Assembly (NCBI GenBank): GCA_902775105.1 | Contig: CACYLC010000022.1 | Span: 1-32,165, forward strand | DNA length: 32,165 nt | Direction: 5' to 3' | From: Oscillospiraceae bacterium | GTDB lineage: Bacteria; Bacillota; Clostridia; Oscillospirales; Oscillospiraceae | In this document: one piece after another, positions 5,024 through 23,050 of the stretch | How the letters are laid out: the number at the start of each line of letters is the position of its first letter | Position numbering within the stretch: the first letter of the stretch is position 1 | Notes under the pieces: model-generated | What the model was told of the DNA's origin: nothing | Database searches by the model: none | What the model saw: only the letters and a program-made list of their open reading frames with translations | Program-made: the position numbers and the translations under genes

Positions 5024-6199
5024 TTAGTGGTGAAACAGCCGGATGCCGGTAAAACACATGGCAATGCCGTACTTGTTGCAGGTCTCAATGACATTGTCGT
5101 CCCGAATGGAGCCGCCGGGCTGGACAATGTACTGCACGCCGCTCTTTCTGGCCCGCTCCACGTTGTCGCCGAAGGGGAAGAAGGCGTCAGAACCAACGGT
5201 CACGCCCTGCTGCTGGGCGATCCAGGACTTCTTTTCCTCAGCGGTAAACACTTCCGGCTTGACCTTAAAGGTGTTCTGCCACACGCCCTCCGCCAGCACG
5301 TCCTCGTACTCGTCGGAGATATAGACGTCGATGGCGTTATCCCGGTCGGGGCGGCGGATATTGTCCACAAACTGAAGACCCAGCACCTTGGGATGATGGC
5401 GCAGCCACCAGTTGTCCGCCTTGCTGCCGGCGAGACGGGTGCAGTGGATGCGGCTCTGCTGTCCTGCGCCCACGCCGATGGCCTGGCCGTTTTTGACGTA
5501 GCAGACGGAGTTGGACTGGGTGTATTTCAGCGTGATCAGCGCCACGATCATGTCGATTTTAGCGGTGTCAGGCAGCTCCTTGTTCTCCGTGACCAGATTG
5601 GTCAGCATCTCCTCGTCAATCTTGAGGAAGTTATGTCCCTGCTCAAAGACCACGCCGAAGATGTGGCGGCGCTCAATGGGGGCGGGGGTGTAATCCGGGT
5701 CGATCTGCACCACGTTGTAGTTGCCCTTCTTCTTGGTCTTGAGGATTTCAAGCGCCTCATCGGTATAGCCGGGAGCGATGACGCCGTCAGAGACCTCATA
5801 TTTCAGATACTCGGCGGTGGAGGCGTCGCAGACATCGGACAGCGCTGCCCAGTCACCATAGGAGCAGAGCCGGTCAGCGCCTCTGGCCCGGATATAGGCG
5901 GCGGCCAGCGGAGTGATCTCAGCGTCCTTGTCCACAAAGTAGACGGCCTTTTCCACGTCGGTCAGCGGCACGCCCACAGCGGCGCCGGCGGGAGAGACGT
6001 GCTTAAAGGAGGCAGCGCAGGGAAGGCCGGTGGCCTCTTTCAGCTCCTTGACCAGCTGCCAGGAGTTCATGGCGTCGCAGAAGTTGATGTAGCCCGGCTT
6101 GCCGTTCAAAACAGTGACAGGCAGCTCGCCCTCCTCCATGTACAGGCGGGAGGGCTTCTGGTTGGGGTTACAGCCGTATTTCAGTTCCAGTTCTTTCAT
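5024..6199 (-). CDS. purH: AICAR formyltransferase (stand-alone PurH C-terminal domain)
   Basis: Transfers a formyl group from 10-formyl-tetrahydrofolate to AICAR, giving FAICAR, the last but one step to IMP. The 391-residue protein corresponds only to the transformylase half of the usual bifunctional PurH; the N-terminal MGS-like IMP cyclohydrolase domain is missing. The catalytic Lys-His pair is K66-H67 in ASFKHVSPAGAA. Further typical segments are VALITLKYTQSNSVCY, IGVGAGQQSRIHCTRLAG, SDAFFPFGDN and the C-terminal QPGGSIRDD. The cyclisation step is supplied by the purO-type gene 9 bp upstream. ATG at 6199 is chosen; MKELELKYGCNPNQ is the normal start of the stand-alone form. Secure as to function. 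Confidence 0.94.
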   Translation of the reverse strand: MKELELKYGCNPNQKPSRLYMEEGELPVTVLNGKPGYINFCDAMNSWQLVKELKEATGLPCAASFKHVSPAGAAVGVPLTDVEKAVYFVDKDAEITPLAAAYIRARGADRLCSYGDWAALSDVCDASTAEYLKYEVSDGVIAPGYTDEALEILKTKKKGNYNVVQIDPDYTPAPIERRHIFGVVFEQGHNFLKIDEEMLTNLVTENKELPDTAKIDMIVALITLKYTQSNSVCYVKNGQAIGVGAGQQSRIHCTRLAGSKADNWWLRHHPKVLGLQFVDNIRRPDRDNAIDVYISDEYEDVLAEGVWQNTFKVKPEVFTAEEKKSWIAQQQGVTVGSDAFFPFGDNVERARKSGVQYIVQPGGSIRDDNVIETCNKYGIAMCFTGIRLFHH

Positions 6200-6208
6200 C
6201 TCGGTACC

Positions 6209-6919
6209 TCACTGCTCGTGTTTGTTGATGATGACGTCGTCGGTGTTCTGGCTTTCCAGATCGATGTAGCGGACGAAGAGGGAGACCTTGTTCTCCTCGT
6301 TCAGGCTGTCCCACAGAAGATTGGCAAACTCCGTGGCGGAATTGGCCGGGATGCCGACCAGCTCCGGCTCGCCCTCAAAGGAGGGGAGAGGATTGCCGTC
6401 TCCCTGATAGGTGTGGATGAAGTGGCCGTAGCCGGCGGGAGCGCCCTCGTACTCATAGAAGTAGCGATTGCAGAATTGGGGATCCCCGTAATAGCTCTTG
6501 AGAATAGACAGCTTATAGGCGCCGCTGGGCAGCATAACGCCGGAGATGCGGGGGGTGTAGTTGGGGCCGTCCGGCTCGAAGGTGCGCGTGTTGAGGGCAT
6601 GGCGGTAGCAGTGGCCGGCCTGCAGGGCCTCCATAATGGTGTCGGTCTGGTCACCGTTGGTGACAATGGTCTTGTCCCCCACCTTGCGGACGGGATGGTA
6701 GATGATGAGAGAGGGATCGGACATCTTGGAGGGGTCAAAAGCCTCGGTGCGGATGCCGTCCTCGGTGATGGAGAAGATGCGGTTGCGGCTGTTGACGCTG
6801 CGACCCATGATGAAATAGGCGATGACGGCGCTCTTGCCGTCGGCGCTCCGACCCAGAATAATGCCCCGGCCGGGGTAGGGATTGGCTTGCAGCTTCTGTG
6901 CGATGTTGGGCAGTTTCAT
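6209..6919 (-). CDS. purO: IMP cyclohydrolase, archaeal PurO type
   Basis: Closes the ring of FAICAR to make IMP. The 236-residue protein begins MKLPNIAQKLQANPYPGRGI and contains GRSADGKSAVIAYFIMGRS, YHPVRKVGDKTIVTNGDQTD and HTYQGDGNPLPSFEGEPE, the pattern of the PurO family first described in archaea and also present in some Firmicutes; it is unrelated to the PurH N-terminal domain. It lies 9 bp before the stand-alone transformylase, so the two together replace bifunctional PurH. A 168-bp stretch with inverted repeats separates it from purN. Recognition rests on sequence pattern plus the missing cyclohydrolase domain next door. Confidence 0.88.
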   Translation of the reverse strand: MKLPNIAQKLQANPYPGRGIILGRSADGKSAVIAYFIMGRSVNSRNRIFSITEDGIRTEAFDPSKMSDPSLIIYHPVRKVGDKTIVTNGDQTDTIMEALQAGHCYRHALNTRTFEPDGPNYTPRISGVMLPSGAYKLSILKSYYGDPQFCNRYFYEYEGAPAGYGHFIHTYQGDGNPLPSFEGEPELVGIPANSATEFANLLWDSLNEENKVSLFVRYIDLESQNTDDVIINKHEQ

Positions 6920-7087: not shown

Positions 7088-7720
7088 TCAGACCCCCGGT
7101 AGAATCTTCACCGTTCTGCCCTCGACCTTGAGCCGTCCCTCGCAGAACAGGCTCACTGCCTTGGGCAGCAGCTTCCACTCTGCCTGCTCCATAATGCGGC
7201 GCTGGAGGGTTTCGGGGGTATCATCCTCCTCTACTGCCACCGCCTTTTGCAGGATAATGGGGCCGCCATCACACTCCTCGTTGACAAAGTGGACGGTTGC
7301 GCCGGAGAGCTTGACGCCGTATTGAAGTGCCTTTTCATGGACGTGAAGCCCATAGGCACCCTCGCCGCAGAAGGAGGGGATGAGGGCGGGATGAACGTTG
7401 ATGATAGCGTTGGGATAGGCGGAGATCAACTCCTCTGTCAGCACATACATAAACCCGGCCAGCACGACCAGCCCGATGTCCTGCTCCTTTAGCAGCTTGG
7501 TGAGATCGTGGGTCATGGCCTCATTGGAGGGATAATCACGCCGATTGACCACAAATCCGGGAATACCCGCCTTTTTCGCCCGCTGAAGGGCGAAGGCATT
7601 GGGAGAGGAGGAGATGACGGCAACCAGCTTACCCTGCTTGATGGTGCAGCGCATCTGGGCGTCGATCAGCGCCTGCAGATTGGTGCCGCCGCCGGAGACC
7701 AGCACGGCGATCCGGGTCAT
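7088..7720 (-). CDS. purN: Phosphoribosylglycinamide formyltransferase
   Basis: Formylates GAR to FGAR using 10-formyl-tetrahydrofolate, the third step of purine synthesis. The 210-residue protein has VLVSGGGTNLQALIDA (residues 7-22), the phosphoribosyl site, and the catalytic triad Asn108 and His110 in INVHPALIPSF with Asp151 in EECDGGPII. Length and motifs are standard. Its ATG overlaps the purM stop codon by 4 bp (ATGA), which indicates translational coupling. The call is secure. Confidence 0.96.
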   Translation of the reverse strand: MTRIAVLVSGGGTNLQALIDAQMRCTIKQGKLVAVISSSPNAFALQRAKKAGIPGFVVNRRDYPSNEAMTHDLTKLLKEQDIGLVVLAGFMYVLTEELISAYPNAIINVHPALIPSFCGEGAYGLHVHEKALQYGVKLSGATVHFVNEECDGGPIILQKAVAVEEDDTPETLQRRIMEQAEWKLLPKAVSLFCEGRLKVEGRTVKILPGV

Positions 7721-8769
7721 AGAATCACCTCAACGCCCTCGTCGCCCTTGATGACCTGGCCGACAACGGCAACCCGCTCCCCATTCTGCACCAGCAGATT
7801 CATGGCCTCGCCCGCTTTGTCCTTGGGCACAGCCAGAACCATGCCAACGCCCATATTGAAGGTGTTGTACATATCCCGGGTGGGGATGCTGCCGGCCTGC
7901 TGGATGATGGAAAAAATAGGCATCTGGGGAATAGAGGCGGTGTTAATGCGGGCGGTAAGTCCCGCCGGCATCATGCGGGGGACATTCTCAAACAGACCGC
8001 CGCCGGTAATGTGGCTGATGCCGTGGATGGGAATGTTGAATTCCATCAGGCAGCGGATCGAGCGGACGTAGATGCGGGTGGGCTTGAGCAGCTCCTCGCC
8101 CAGGGTGCAGCCCAGGTCAGCGTTATACTGGCCGAAGGTGTTATTGATATCCAGCACCTTGCGCACCAGAGAGAAGCCGTTGGAGTGGACGCCGGTGGAA
8201 CCGAGGCCGAGCAGAATGTCGCCCTCCTCCATCTTTTCATTGGTGATCTTCTTGTCGTAGTCCACCAGGCCCACGGAAAAGCCTGCCAGATCGTACTCGT
8301 CCACCGGATAGAAACCGGGCATCTCGGCAGTCTCGCCGCCAATGAGGGCGCAGCCGGACTGACGGCAGCCGTCGGCAATGCCGGAGACGATCTGCTCGAT
8401 CTTTTTCGGATCATTCTTGCCGCAGGCGATATAGTCTAAGAAAAACATGGGCATAGCGCCGGAGCAGATAATATCGTTGACGCACATGGCTACGCAGTCA
8501 ATGCCCACGGTGTCGTGCTTGTCAAGGAGGAAGGCCAGCTTGAGCTTGGTGCCCACGCCGTCGGTACCCGAGACCAGAACGGGGCGGTTCATGCCCTTGA
8601 TCTGAGGCTCAAACATGCCGCCGAAATCGCCAATGCCGCCCAGCACACCGGGTACAACGGTGGAGGCGACCAGTGGCTTGATGCGGCTGACAGCCTCGTA
8701 GCCGGCGGTGACGTCTACACCGGCGGCGGCGTAGGAGGCAGACTGACTGTTGTTGCTGTTGGGATTCAT
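7717..8769 (-). CDS. purM: Phosphoribosylformylglycinamidine cyclo-ligase (AIR synthetase)
   Basis: Closes FGAM to AIR with ATP, step five of the pathway. The 350-residue protein has the PurM marks ASTVVPGVLGGIGDFGGMFE, LVSGTDGVGTKLKLAF, CVNDIICSGAMPMFFLDYIA, ALIGGETAEMPGFY and HITGGGLFENVPRM. The N-terminal 15 residues (Asn/Ser-rich) are unusual but an AGGAGG ribosome site stands before the ATG at 8769 and supports this start. It overlaps purN by 4 bp and follows purF by 17 bp. The call is secure. Confidence 0.96.
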   Translation of the reverse strand: MNPNSNNSQSASYAAAGVDVTAGYEAVSRIKPLVASTVVPGVLGGIGDFGGMFEPQIKGMNRPVLVSGTDGVGTKLKLAFLLDKHDTVGIDCVAMCVNDIICSGAMPMFFLDYIACGKNDPKKIEQIVSGIADGCRQSGCALIGGETAEMPGFYPVDEYDLAGFSVGLVDYDKKITNEKMEEGDILLGLGSTGVHSNGFSLVRKVLDINNTFGQYNADLGCTLGEELLKPTRIYVRSIRCLMEFNIPIHGISHITGGGLFENVPRMMPAGLTARINTASIPQMPIFSIIQQAGSIPTRDMYNTFNMGVGMVLAVPKDKAGEAMNLLVQNGERVAVVGQVIKGDEGVEVIL

Positions 8770-8786: not shown

Positions 8787-10235
8787 TTATAAGATGGTGG
8801 GAAAGATGGAAAGCTGCGGATGGGGATCTTCCCGGACGGGGAGAACGTAATCGCCGGTAAAGCAGGCGTCGCAGAAGCCCAGCCCTTCTCCCTTTGCCAG
8901 CTCTTTCAGCGTGTCGAGGGGGAGATACTGGAGAGAGTCTGCGCCGATCAGCTTGCAGACCTCCTCTACGGTGCGGCCGTTGGCGGCCATATCCTCCGAG
9001 CGGGGCGTCACCGTGCCGAAGTGACACTGATAGCGGAAGGGGGGAGAGGAGACCCGCATGTGGACCTCCTTCGCGCCGGCGTCCCGCAGCAGTTTTACAA
9101 TGCGGGCGCAGGTTTTGCCCCGAACGATGGAGTCGTCCACCAAAATGATCCGCTTGCCCTTCACCGTGGCGGAGACGGCGTTGAGCTTAATGTGCAGGCT
9201 CTTTTCCTGCTCCCAGCGCTGCGTCTGAATAAAAGTGCGGGCGATATAGCGGTTTTTCATCAGGCCAATGCCGTAGGGGATGCGGGATTCTCTGGCAAAG
9301 CCCATGGCGGCGGCAATGCCGGAGTCGGGCACACCGATGACCAGATCGCCCTCCACGTCGTTCTGACGGGCCAACATCCGTCCCGCCTTTTCCCGGACGG
9401 AACCTACGGCGATGCCGTCAATGATGGAGTCCTGCCGGGCGAAATAGATCAGCTCAAACAGGCACAGGGCACGCCGGGCGGCCCGGATGCGGCAGTGATG
9501 GCTGGAGACTATGCCGTCCCTGGCGACCACAACCTCGCCCGGCTCCACATCCCGCAGGAAGGTGCCGCCCAGCGCCTCTATGGCGCAGGACTCGGAGGCA
9601 AAGATGATGGCATCTCCCAATTTGCCGATGCAGAGGGGGCGAAAGCCGTTGGGATCTCTTGCAGCGATCAGCTTCCCCTTTTCCATCAGCACGATAGAAT
9701 AGGCGCCGATCATGTAGTCCATGGCGTTGAGGACGGCGTCCTCCAGCGTGTGGGTACGCAGATGCTCCCGGACGATGAGATAGGCGATGATCTCGGCGTC
9801 GTTGGTGCCCTGGAAGATGCCGCCCCGGTGCTCCGTCTCCATACGGAGCGCATGGCCGTTTGCCAGCGTGCCGTTATAGCACATGGCCATGGAGCCGGAG
9901 GCATGGTGCACCACCAGCGGCTGGATATTGGCAGGGTTGACAGTGGCGGCGGTGGTGGCGTGGCGCACATGGCCGATGGCAGCGTCAGCGCCCCGGAATT
10001 GCTCCAGTGCGGAGAGGGAGAATACCTCCGGCACCAAACCTGCCGCCTTGTGTACCCGAAGCAGTCCGCCGTGCGCCACGGCGATGCCGCAGGAGTCCTG
10101 GCCCCGATGCTGGAGGGCATAGAGGGCGTTATAGGCGTCGAAAGCCGGCTCCCGGCCGCCCTCAGGCCCGTTGATGAGGCCAAAGACGCCGCACTCCTCT
10201 TTCAGCTTCGGGGCAGTGATAGTCAGTTCATTCAT
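8787..10235 (-). CDS. purF: Amidophosphoribosyltransferase
   Basis: First committed step of purine synthesis: glutamine plus PRPP gives phosphoribosylamine. The 482-residue protein is the Fe-S, propeptide-bearing (Bacillus) type. Cys15 of EECGVFGL should become the N-terminal nucleophile after removal of 14 residues. The PRPP loop is VDDSIVRG at 366-373. Four cysteines fit the [4Fe-4S] ligands: Cys258 in ALCLFE, Cys404 in YQCHFG, and Cys455/Cys458 in FCDACF. Such clusters make the enzyme oxygen-labile, which suits an anaerobe. It lies 13 bp after purC and 17 bp before purM. The call is secure. Confidence 0.97.
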   Translation of the reverse strand: MNELTITAPKLKEECGVFGLINGPEGGREPAFDAYNALYALQHRGQDSCGIAVAHGGLLRVHKAAGLVPEVFSLSALEQFRGADAAIGHVRHATTAATVNPANIQPLVVHHASGSMAMCYNGTLANGHALRMETEHRGGIFQGTNDAEIIAYLIVREHLRTHTLEDAVLNAMDYMIGAYSIVLMEKGKLIAARDPNGFRPLCIGKLGDAIIFASESCAIEALGGTFLRDVEPGEVVVARDGIVSSHHCRIRAARRALCLFELIYFARQDSIIDGIAVGSVREKAGRMLARQNDVEGDLVIGVPDSGIAAAMGFARESRIPYGIGLMKNRYIARTFIQTQRWEQEKSLHIKLNAVSATVKGKRIILVDDSIVRGKTCARIVKLLRDAGAKEVHMRVSSPPFRYQCHFGTVTPRSEDMAANGRTVEEVCKLIGADSLQYLPLDTLKELAKGEGLGFCDACFTGDYVLPVREDPHPQLSIFPTIL

Positions 10236-10248
10236 AGGGATCGGAAGC

Positions 10249-10974
10249 TCAGCCCTCAGCGTCGCCCATCAGACGGCGCATGACCTCCTGATAGGCCTCC
10301 TCAGCGCCGCCCAGATCCCGGCGGAAACGATCCTTGTCCAGCTTCTCGTGGGTGGTCTCGTCCCACAGACGGCAGGTGTCGGGGCTGATCTCATCGGCCA
10401 GCACGATGGTGCCGTCGGCCAGCTTGCCAAACTCCAGCTTGAAGTCCACCAGATCAATGCCGACGGACTTGAGGAAGCCGCGGAGCAGATCGTTGACCTG
10501 GAAGGCGTACTTCTTAATGAGTTCAATTTCCTCCCAGGTGGCGGCCTTGAGCGCCACTGCATGGTAGGCGTTCATCAGGGGATCGCCCAGATCGTCGTTC
10601 TTGTAGGAGAATTCGATGGTAGGCTCGTCAAAGACAATGCCCTCCTCCACGCCGAAGCGCTTGGCAAAGGAGCCGGCGGAAATGTTGCGGATGATAACCT
10701 CCAGAGGCACGATGGAGACCTTTTTGACGGCGGTCTCACGGTCGCTGAGTTCCTCCACATAGTGGGTGGGAACGCCGGCGGCCTCCAGCTTGCGCATCAT
10801 ATGGTTGCTCATGCGGTTGTTGATGACGCCCTTGCCTACAATGGTGCCCTTTTTCAGGCCGTTAAAGGCGGTGGCGTCGTCCTTATAGGAGACGATGACG
10901 ATCTCGGGGTCTGCGGTTGCAAATACCTTTTTTGCCTTGCCCTCGTAGAGCTGTTCCAGTTTTTCGTATGCCAT
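10249..10974 (-). CDS. purC: SAICAR synthetase
   Basis: Joins CAIR and aspartate with ATP to give SAICAR. The protein is 241 residues from the ATG at 10974, preceded by AGAAAGGAAG; the frame stays open upstream but the family start MAYEKLEQLYEGKAKKVF settles the choice. Other marks are FNGLKKGTIVGKGVINN, VIIRNISAGSFAKRFG, GIDLVDFKLEFG and ADEISPDTCRLWD. It follows purE by 40 bp. PurK is not present in this operon. The call is secure. Confidence 0.96.
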   Translation of the reverse strand: MAYEKLEQLYEGKAKKVFATADPEIVIVSYKDDATAFNGLKKGTIVGKGVINNRMSNHMMRKLEAAGVPTHYVEELSDRETAVKKVSIVPLEVIIRNISAGSFAKRFGVEEGIVFDEPTIEFSYKNDDLGDPLMNAYHAVALKAATWEEIELIKKYAFQVNDLLRGFLKSVGIDLVDFKLEFGKLADGTIVLADEISPDTCRLWDETTHEKLDKDRFRRDLGGAEEAYQEVMRRLMGDAEG

Positions 10975-11014: not shown

Positions 11015-11512
11015 TTACTGCTCGAACTGAGCGCGGACCTTCTCGTCCTTGGCGGCCACGGCCTCGGCCATATCCTGTTTGAAGGCCGCAAGCTTTGCAG
11101 TCAATTCCGCATCGCCGATGGCCAGCATCTGAGCGGCCAGGATGCCGGCGTTGGCGGCGCCGTTGACGCCTACCGTGGCAACGGGAATGCCGGAAGGCAT
11201 CTGCACGATGGAGAGCAGGCTGTCCAGTCCGCCCATCATGCTGGTCTTGATGGGGACGCCGATCACTGGCAGGGTGGTGTAGGCCGCCAGTACGCCGCCC
11301 AGGTGAGCGGCCTTGCCGGCGCCGGCGATGATAACGCCGAACCCGTTCTCAGCGGCGTCTGAGGCAAACTGCTCGGCGGCAGCGGGGGTGCGGTGGGCGG
11401 AGATGATGCGTACCTCCACAGGGATGCCGAAGTGCTTTAATTTGTCGATTGCCTCCTGCATCACCGGCAGGTCGCTGTCAGAGCCCATGATGACGGCTGC
11501 TTTTTTTGCCAT
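11015..11512 (-). CDS. purE: N5-carboxyaminoimidazole ribonucleotide mutase
   Basis: Moves the carboxyl group of N5-CAIR to give CAIR (class I PurE). The 165-residue protein has the substrate loop GSDSDLPVMQEA at 10-21, the catalytic His40 in ISAHRTP, and GAGKAAHLGGVLAAYTTLPVIGVP. A partner PurK that makes N5-CAIR is not in the window. GGAGGAGGAAG precedes the ATG and follows almost directly after the attenuator-like hairpin. It is the first structural gene of the purine operon. The call is secure. Confidence 0.96.
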   Translation of the reverse strand: MAKKAAVIMGSDSDLPVMQEAIDKLKHFGIPVEVRIISAHRTPAAAEQFASDAAENGFGVIIAGAGKAAHLGGVLAAYTTLPVIGVPIKTSMMGGLDSLLSIVQMPSGIPVATVGVNGAANAGILAAQMLAIGDAELTAKLAAFKQDMAEAVAAKDEKVRAQFEQ

Positions 11513-11530: not shown

Positions 11531-11568
11531 CAGGAAAACAGGCAGATAAAGGGTATTATCTGCCTGTT
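11531..11568 (-). terminator. Attenuator-like hairpin in the purine operon leader
   Basis: AACAGGCAGATAA and TTATCTGCCTGTT (11537-11549 and 11556-11568) form a perfect 13-bp stem with a 6-nt loop, followed in the direction of transcription by TTTTCC. It ends only about 20 bp before purE and contains the stop codon of the leader ORF at the top of its first arm. A copy of GCCTGTT lies upstream in the leader (complement of 11600-11606) and could pair with the first arm in place of the second, giving a competing structure. Termination itself is inferred; the U-tract is short. Confidence 0.65.
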
Positions 11569-11648
11569 ATGAGACGGTGTTCAGTGGGGAGAACGGCGCA
11601 ACAGGCGCTTTGGCAAGATGCGAAATGCAGCTCAAACCAACGCAGCAT
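11556..11648 (-). CDS. Putative leader peptide of the purine operon
   Basis: A 30-codon ORF starts at ATG 11646-11648 and stops at TAA 11556-11558. It has a strong ribosome site (AGGAGGGAG, eight or so bases before the ATG), better than those of several structural genes, and begins only about 25 nt after the predicted transcription start. The peptide starts MLRWFELHFASC and has three cysteines (Cys12, Cys16, Cys17) and two histidines. Its stop codon lies inside the first arm of the 13-bp hairpin that precedes purE, and codons 15-17 contain the GCCTGTT that can compete with that hairpin. This is the arrangement of a translation-coupled attenuator. No known family is recognised; that it is translated is inferred. 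Confidence 0.55.
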   Translation of the reverse strand: MLRWFELHFASCQSACCAVLPTEHRLITGR

Positions 11649-11679
11649 GGCAACTCCCTCCTCACTTCTATTTGATTGT

Positions 11680-11708
11680 ATTTTATCCCATGGAATGGGG
11701 AGTTTCAA
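11680..11708 (-). promoter_or_regulatory. Sigma-A-type promoter of the purine operon
   Basis: On the minus strand TTGAAA (11703-11708) and TAAAAT (11680-11685) are separated by exactly 17 bp. The start of transcription should be near 11673, which puts the leader ORF at the very 5' end and leaves no room for a purine or PRPP riboswitch. A weak PurR-box-like stretch (CCCGAAAAAT on the plus strand) lies a little upstream but matches the B. subtilis consensus poorly. Confidence 0.75.
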
Positions 11709-11839
11709 GGAGAAAAGAACCCGAAAAATGTTTTTTGTACGCTTACACAATGGAAAAGAAAAAAAGGGGAGAGGAATTGTCTCAACCGCCTATGGCATAT
11801 GCCGAAATCAGTTTGCACTGCCGCAGGCACCGTTTGGCA

Positions 11840-22854: not shown

Positions 22855-23050
22855 AATAAGACCCCGCTCTGGCCGTGTGACCAATTTCAAACCTGCACCT
22901 AAGGGCAGGTGGGACGCGCCCGGCTGGCTTTACTGCTTCCAACGTCCGGCGCAACGCGCGGGGAGGCCTGCAAACCACCGGCCGAGGGATGCATCCCGTT
23001 TGAGAATTGTGGGTTTAAACACTGGTCATCACGAACCGAGCAGGGCAGTG
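22855..23050 (-). ncRNA. ssrS: Probable 6S RNA
   Basis: This stretch holds no ORF of note but folds as a long rod. Its two ends pair over about 184 nt: CCC/GGG (22862-22864 with 23043-23045), GCTC/GAGC (22866-22869 with 23038-23041), GG/CC, CGTG/CACG (22874-22877 with 23030-23033) and TGACCA/TGGTCA (22878-22883 with 23023-23028). Then comes a bubble with a small hairpin (ACCTGC/GCAGGT at 22891-22910) on one side. Closing stem, central bubble with a hairpin in the 3' strand and an apical stem are the layout of 6S RNA, which binds the housekeeping RNA polymerase. The minus strand is chosen because the hairpin then lies in the 3' strand and a terminator follows. No clear own promoter is seen; it starts 16 bp after the DUF1292 stop. 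Confidence 0.62.

Follow-up and report, generated by a model that had tools for sequence, protein, structure and literature searches.

A conserved leader ORF and terminator upstream of purE in Oscillospiraceae: a candidate translation-gated attenuator

The pur gene cluster and its leader

The window analyzed here is a 32,165-nt stretch of contig CACYLC010000022.1 from an Oscillospiraceae bacterium. On its minus strand it carries purE (11015..11512; TIGR01162, E 1.7e-61; ATG at 11512), followed by purC (10249..10968; TIGR00081), purF (8787..10235; TIGR01134), purM (7717..8769; TIGR00878), and purN (7088..7720; TIGR00639). An IMP-cyclohydrolase-like ORF and an AICAR formyltransferase gene come next, with purD further on; the leader in front of purE thus heads the gene cluster of the pathway. 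The IMP-cyclohydrolase-like ORF (6209-6919, minus strand) is of the archaeal PurO type, with a score below the curated cut-off, and the separate AICAR formyltransferase gene lies beside it (5024-6199, minus strand), the pair replacing the fused PurH. Elsewhere in the window, a 6S RNA was found at 22857-23049 on the minus strand (73.9 bits). The closest purE among the matches listed (96%) comes from an uncultured Clostridiales, isolate RUG010. Among the results listed by searches of the open-licence literature, subscription papers excluded, no account of the control of purine synthesis in these gut bacteria was seen.

The leader is read from the minus strand as well. A sigma-70-type promoter, TTGAAA-17-TAAAAT (-35 at 11708-11703, -10 at 11685-11680), has similar counterparts upstream of purE in loci of the same genus. 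It is followed by the Shine-Dalgarno site (SD) GGAGG (11657..11661), 8 nt before the ATG of a leader ORF of 30 codons, MLRWFELHFASCQSACCAVLPTEHRLITGR plus TAA (11556..11648; ATG at 11648, TAA at 11558-11556). A perfect, terminator-like 13-bp hairpin with a 6-nt loop occupies 11537..11568 and ends 24 nt before the purE ATG. The TAA forms the last three bases of the first arm, so that the stop lies inside the stem, at +10 relative to the hairpin start. The encoded peptide contains cysteines at positions 12, 16, and 17. The first-pass annotation had described the promoter, the ORF with its strong ribosome site, the stop in the first arm, and the three cysteines, and all are present as it said.

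The hairpin is followed just by TTTTCC, a weak U tract, and a terminator scan of the window did not report it. The T-run after the hairpin is longer than the window's in most relatives among those listed, the relatives with U-tract terminators having been selected for that feature.

Leader ORFs upstream of purE in related genomes

The purE gene was located in 31 of 32 genomes of the window's genus and in 192 of 250 family genomes searched at a cut-off of E <= 1e-40. The upstream regions collected numbered 174, of which 29 belong to the genus and 145 to the family matches listed. In 102 of the 174, a custom scoring script detected a strong hairpin near purE that is followed by a T-rich tail. 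A regular expression flagged 26 of these 102 leaders as ZTP riboswitches; Rfam confirmed 25, and the exception, L153, is really a leader of the window type. Among the 76 remaining terminator-bearing leaders, related sequences included, SD strength pointed to a start in 75, and 61 of the 75 pass an SD score of at least 7 with a stop between -20 and +80. The nearest relative of the window leader, L008, is outside the 75 because its hairpin scored too low. A fresh sample was drawn from 80 loci and 7 others; removal of 27 near-duplicates, 28 leaders without a terminator, one ZTP leader, one without an ORF, and one that was too short left 29 leaders (one pair identical). A DNA search of 150 family genomes with the window leader gave, outside its own genome, one 27-base match. 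Window-type leaders were also found in records of Flavonifractor and Intestinimonas.

The stop of the SD-chosen ORF lies at -16..+1 nt of the hairpin in 49 of the 75 non-ZTP leaders, as against 5 and 6 leaders when frames +1 and +2 are read. The same placement holds for 39/48 leaders of other genera (4 and 6 in the other frames), for 10/27 leaders of the window's genus (1 and 0), where six of the ten form one close cluster, and for 21/29 leaders of the fresh sample (1 and 2). The 26 leaders flagged as ZTP by regular expression gave 0, 0, and 1 in this frame test. Counted over all 75, the spacer from stop to stem is 0-13 nt in 42 leaders, and in 21 the stop falls within the hairpin or beyond it (> +3; 15/27 in the genus and 6/48 in the others). 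The window leader, at +10, is outside the 49.

It is from these frame statistics that we infer translation of the leader; by the same measure, the leaders conserve an ORF whose end lies a little upstream of the hairpin, within it, or beyond it, with placement judged to be looser near the window, in its own genus. The short ORF and terminator hairpin that the first-pass annotation expected before purE in relatives were indeed found, in the main set and the fresh sample alike. Its expectation of a fixed stop inside the hairpin held in part: the stop is kept near or in the hairpin, but its exact placement varies, most visibly in the genus.

In 13 genus leaders (L009, L011-L015, L017, L019, L021, L028, L031, L033, and L034) the ORF crosses the whole hairpin and stops close to the purE start or beyond it; stop placement thus appears to have changed repeatedly within one genus. 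No strong SD at proper spacing was seen in the genus leaders L017, L019, L021, and L031, and leader start codons vary between ATG, GTG, and TTG. In two more distant Oscillospiraceae, L317 and L333, the peptides end in GVSVGKLRL and GVSVSKFRL and the stop lies 6-7 nt inside the hairpin; these leaders are possibly the same element further out.

The weak terminator of the window, and the fact that intergenic hairpins are common, would suit a leader that regulates nothing, with a plain terminator of weak upstream transcription standing by a chance short ORF. Such a reading is highly improbable, since the hairpin has a promoter upstream that is kept along with it, and the placement of the stop is specific to one frame in the 75 leaders and again in the 29.

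Covariation of the terminator and a covariance model

In 28 leaders of other genera, the terminator stem differs in sequence and shows covariation at 8 of its 12 pairs. Its foot, CAGG/CCTG, is nearly invariant in the alignment A1, with free covariation in the remainder of the stem. From 30 leaders of other genera we built R1, a covariance model that spans the ORF end and the terminator, and searched 300 family genomes with it under strict filters. At E < 1e-6 it gave 38 matches spread over 16 genera, every one of them upstream of purE (four placed by the coordinates of the purE search); 27 of the 38 matched genomes had supplied training leaders and 11 had not. Twenty regions around R1 matches were examined, 4 at purE and 16 elsewhere. 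The 16 matches away from purE (E 9e-6 or weaker) appeared by eye to be ordinary hairpins or terminators and were rejected. Among the matches listed, R1 found none at purE in genomes of the window's genus, the window's own included, and the genus is therefore joined to the other leaders by shared architecture.

The leader peptide and the proposed antiterminator

The first-pass annotation proposed a ribosome-dependent attenuator in which GCCTGTT of the ORF (11606-11600) pairs with AACAGGC of the first hairpin arm (11568-11562) to form an antiterminator, with the peptide or cysteine as a possible sensor. The match exists in the window, but across the leaders it occurs no more than by chance. A contiguous 7-bp Watson-Crick match between ORF and first arm was found in one of 61 leaders, the window alone, and swapped combinations of ORF and arm reach 7 bp in 4.7% of cases. 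The mean longest match in the 61 leaders is 4.34 for own and 4.64 for swapped arms, and the duplex energy averages -10.44 for own and -11.01 for swapped pairs in 36 non-redundant leaders. When the ORF end is paired with the first arm, own combinations are worse than swapped ones over 47 leaders (z +2.5) and no better than swapped in the window's genus (z -0.8, 456/2000 permutations). The GCCTGTT antiterminator was rejected on these grounds. Compensatory changes, expected in both pairings, are seen in the terminator stem; the antiterminator pairing does no better than swapped sequences.

The leader peptides drift and show no resemblance between genera. Sister genera share a short C-terminal peptide pattern, which follows conserved nucleotides. 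Pooled pN/pS is 0.72, taken over 31 non-independent pairs from five sets of close relatives, and points to weak constraint on the peptide. Purines have no codon, and no run of codons for a pathway product was seen when the leader peptides were read by eye. Cysteine is not conserved in the leader peptides of relatives, although the L008 leader also encodes three. Sensing by cysteine or the peptide was rejected because the peptides diverge and by the pN/pS value.

Taken together, the classical attenuator, in which stalling on the leader selects the antiterminator, can draw on the 7-bp pairing and three Cys codons of the window and on the three of L008. The rarity of the pairing, duplexes that are worse than swapped ones over all leaders and no better in the genus, and peptides that are unrelated between genera leave it with hardly any probability. 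By sequence comparison, what the first reading had noticed is real and conserved, and its mechanism fails in two parts: a translated leader and terminator are indeed kept, but neither the antiterminator nor the peptide sensor goes with them.

A helix between the Shine-Dalgarno site and the ORF end

The minimum free energy (MFE) fold of the window leader contains a long-range helix, P1, of AGUG/CACU and GGAGGG/UUCUCC, which covers the SD. Its 5' strand, AGUG-A-GGAGGG, lies at 11656..11666 and includes the leader SD; its 3' strand, UUCUCC-C-CACU, lies at 11583..11593 near the ORF end, both on the minus strand. In duplex tests of own against swapped sequences, 36 non-redundant leaders out of 47 gave -17.81 kcal/mol for own and -15.62 kcal/mol for swapped pairs, with 0/2000 permutations as good. 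With wider segments, z is -5.1 for all 47 leaders, -4.7 for 31 leaders of other genera, and weak, at -1.8 (82/2000 permutations), for 16 leaders of the window's genus. Out of sample, 18 leaders of the fresh sample gave z -3.6 (0/2000 permutations). For comparison, other segment pairs range from z -1.3 to +2.8, the promoter control over all leaders is at -0.5, and the terminator arms, used as a positive control, reach -17.9. P1 base pairs are more numerous in own than in cross combinations in 45 of 56 leaders.

The predicted openness of the window SD falls from 0.42 before to 0.02 after the ORF end is present. Over the 56 leaders its mean goes from 0.36 to 0.20 with the ORF end (p 0.0002), of which swapped ORF ends already account for a fall to 0.24, the own-specific part being small (p 0.038); in several leaders the SD is predicted to be more open with the ORF end, not less. 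In L008, the DNA from the site described below to the start is 94% identical to the window and the ORF 68%, yet its altered ORF end is again predicted to pair with the SD region, through a helix of different sequence. A strict GGACG:CGUCC core has weak statistics (z 2.1, 97/5000). The register of P1 varies between lineages, and an RNAalifold consensus recovered the terminator alone and not P1, the position of which relative to the SD varies. On this comparative evidence, a long-range helix between SD and ORF end is conserved, weakly so inside the window's genus. P1 and the hairpin occupy separate bases in the window and hence are not mutually exclusive there.

Riboswitches upstream of purE

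An Rfam search of the window leader returned nothing of note even at a permissive threshold. The ZTP riboswitch (RF01750) had no covariance-model match in the leader, and the purine riboswitch (RF00167) had none in the window or, at E <= 0.001, in any of the 32 genus genomes. A ZTP riboswitch, a purine riboswitch, or any further Rfam RNA was accordingly rejected for the leader, which bears out the earlier remark that no purine riboswitch lies here. A ZTP riboswitch, confirmed by Rfam, stands before purE instead of the leader ORF in 27 loci, one in the genus (L035) and the others outside it (L104, L105, L116, L124, L126, L127, L136, L137, L145, L146, L154, L165, L169, L179, L183, L184, L187-L189, L192, L193, L195-L197, L200, and L201). 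Anywhere in the genome, the riboswitch was found in 27 of 32 genus genomes, G004 being the one that has it before purE, and none was found in the window's own.

These loci bear on the possibility that P1 closes a metabolite aptamer or protein site of a kind so far unrecognised, the bound state of which would lock the SD, with leader translation relaying the effect to the terminator. The conservation of P1, the restriction of strong R1 matches to purE, the ZTP aptamer at the same place in other genera, and a motif near the ORF end, CCAGGGCnCCAnUGCGUCCAAAU, which is conserved across sister genera even where the GGACG:CGUCC core is missing, all agree with it. Yet the CCAGGGCnCCAnUGCGUCCAAAU motif was not found in the window's own genus, the Rfam search gave no match of note, the P1 register shifts between lineages, and RNAalifold recovers the terminator alone. 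We regard an aptamer or protein site as unlikely, though it deserves serious consideration.

A candidate DNA site upstream of the promoter

A palindrome-like, operator-like site, TTGTGTAAGCGTACAAA (TTGTNNAAGCNTACRAA), lies at 11734..11750 on the minus strand, 25 nt upstream of the -35 box. The pattern TTGT-N6/7-TACRAA was found in 34 of 62 window-type upstream regions of purE, in none of 34 regions flagged as ZTP by regular expression (27 of them confirmed by Rfam), and in 6 of 78 other regions. For 43 of the 45 loci compared, the site lies 14-15 or 24-26 nt from the -35 box that scores best; the two spacings are about one helical turn apart, as might be needed by an activator. A strict form of the pattern had 13 matches in 120 genomes, 10 of which are the purE site by coordinates, and two of the three others sit inside coding regions. 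A search of the window's own genome for the site with two mismatches gave matches at chance level. These observations suggest a candidate regulatory DNA site, in phase with the promoter and almost restricted to purE. The first reading had included neither this site nor the ZTP riboswitch at purE elsewhere nor the helix between SD and ORF end.

Proposed mechanism and signal

We propose that the leader is a translation-gated transcription attenuator of the pyrBI kind for the purE-C-F-M-N cluster, a reading that we hold at about even chances. A ribosome that loads early would translate the leader and stand on the first arm of the hairpin as RNA polymerase passes, so that transcription would continue into purE. 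If no ribosome has loaded before the ORF end is made, P1 could form and shut the SD; the terminator would then fold and purE would be off. In leaders with a stop within or beyond the hairpin, the translating ribosome would itself open the stem. Since P1 and the hairpin have no bases in common in the window, the switch would be the ribosome, not an antiterminator RNA.

Work on E. coli supports the geometry. According to PMC4824070, when the stop was brought closer to a terminator, from a distance of 28 bp to one of 5 bp, termination efficiency dropped from ~90% to <10%, the terminator was near its maximum when the stop was more than about 27-30 nt upstream, and uncoupling or removing translation abolished terminator repression. 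With spacers of 0-13 nt (42/75) or stops in or past the hairpin (21/75), leader translation is therefore expected to lead to readthrough. The pyrBI attenuator needs tight coupling across the leader peptide (PMC5021804).

As to the signal, we tentatively suggest that the supply of purine nucleotides sets this race through the speed and pausing of RNA polymerase, by analogy with pyrBI, for which the signal is UTP supply; this is possible, and we would sooner doubt than assert it.

One more specific version involves pausing. At the E. coli consensus pause G-10 Y-1 G+1, RNA polymerase waits before adding G (PMC9291695 and PMC12288461). Twelve of 31 sister-genus leaders have the motif at -16 from the stop (best position after codon shuffling: mean 6.3, maximum 9), as do 8 of 13 new leaders, some of them near relatives of each other (shuffled 4.6, maximum 6). 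Anywhere near the stop, it was found in 23/31 sister-genus leaders (shuffled mean 16.3, maximum 25) and 13/13 new ones (shuffled 7.5, maximum 13). The window's genus shows no enrichment of it (4/11; shuffled mean 5.5), and none lies near the window's stop. The pause consensus was consequently rejected as a general feature, being confined to sister genera. There, the bases of the motif also serve P1, so that the two readings are inseparable. Leaders unable to form the GGACG:CGUCC core still carry the motif, which would be compatible with an aptamer, a protein, or a pause.

In the sister genera, the polymerase might thus pause at G-N8-YG while copying the strand that closes the SD, and GTP would be needed to leave. 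Scarce GTP would lengthen the pause, letting a ribosome load first and hold the terminator open; with ample GTP, P1 would shut the SD and the terminator would act. Such a self-closing, GTP-clocked leader, reading the pool as the time between the making and the hiding of its SD, is speculative and we consider it improbable. If true, it would work with no aptamer, regulatory codon, or antiterminator, at a place where related genera use a ZTP riboswitch.

The same anatomy would also fit a leader that monitors initiation. Low fMet-tRNA, resulting from low 10-formyl-THF, or a shortage of free ribosomes would then shut the pur operon; because an untranslated leader shuts it, purines would not be made when formyl donors or ribosomes are short. 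A related case has been suggested for the uORF of Streptococcus fthC, which may respond to initiator tRNA (PMC11109978). The frequency of ZTP riboswitches in the genus (27/32 genomes) points in the same direction. In the two genus loci inspected, moreover, the riboswitch precedes a putative fhs-like gene. However, no sequence feature was found that indicates initiator tRNA, the start codons being ATG, GTG, or TTG, and the window's own genome yielded no ZTP riboswitch. An initiation monitor is quite improbable in our estimate.

Comparison with known attenuators and riboswitches

The trp, his, and ilvB attenuators share with the purE leader a promoter, a leader ORF, a terminator, and a biosynthetic operon; here, in contrast, no run of regulatory codons was seen and no antiterminator is conserved. 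The ZTP riboswitch RF01750 occupies the same place before the same target gene in relatives, and the window has no match to its aptamer. The mgtM leader of Salmonella mgtCBR also has a short ORF with a non-conserved peptide; it serves the response to ATP, a purine nucleotide being proposed to act through coupling (PMC3641672). It differs in that alternative stem-loops and conserved adenines decide the outcome, and high ATP is the ON state.

The closest likeness is to pyrBI (pyrL) of E. coli, where a ribosome on the leader ORF, close behind RNA polymerase, blocks an intrinsic terminator (PMC4824070 and PMC5021804). Also shared are the setting in a nucleotide biosynthesis operon and the placement of the terminator, a terminator-like hairpin in the window, at or in the ORF. 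The purE leader has, as far as can be judged from its sequence, the features of this type, namely an ORF without a conserved peptide and an ORF end that would let a ribosome cover the stem. On the other hand, its operon serves purine and not pyrimidine synthesis, its nucleotide sensing is proposed by analogy, its stop is often just before the hairpin and that of pyrBI beyond it, and a helix between SD and ORF end is predicted. On this reading the purE leader would be a purine counterpart of the pyrBI attenuator, with a candidate helix that closes the SD. If this conserved attenuator indeed senses by the timing of translation, the exchange of one sensing principle for another, the ZTP riboswitch, could be studied at a single gene.
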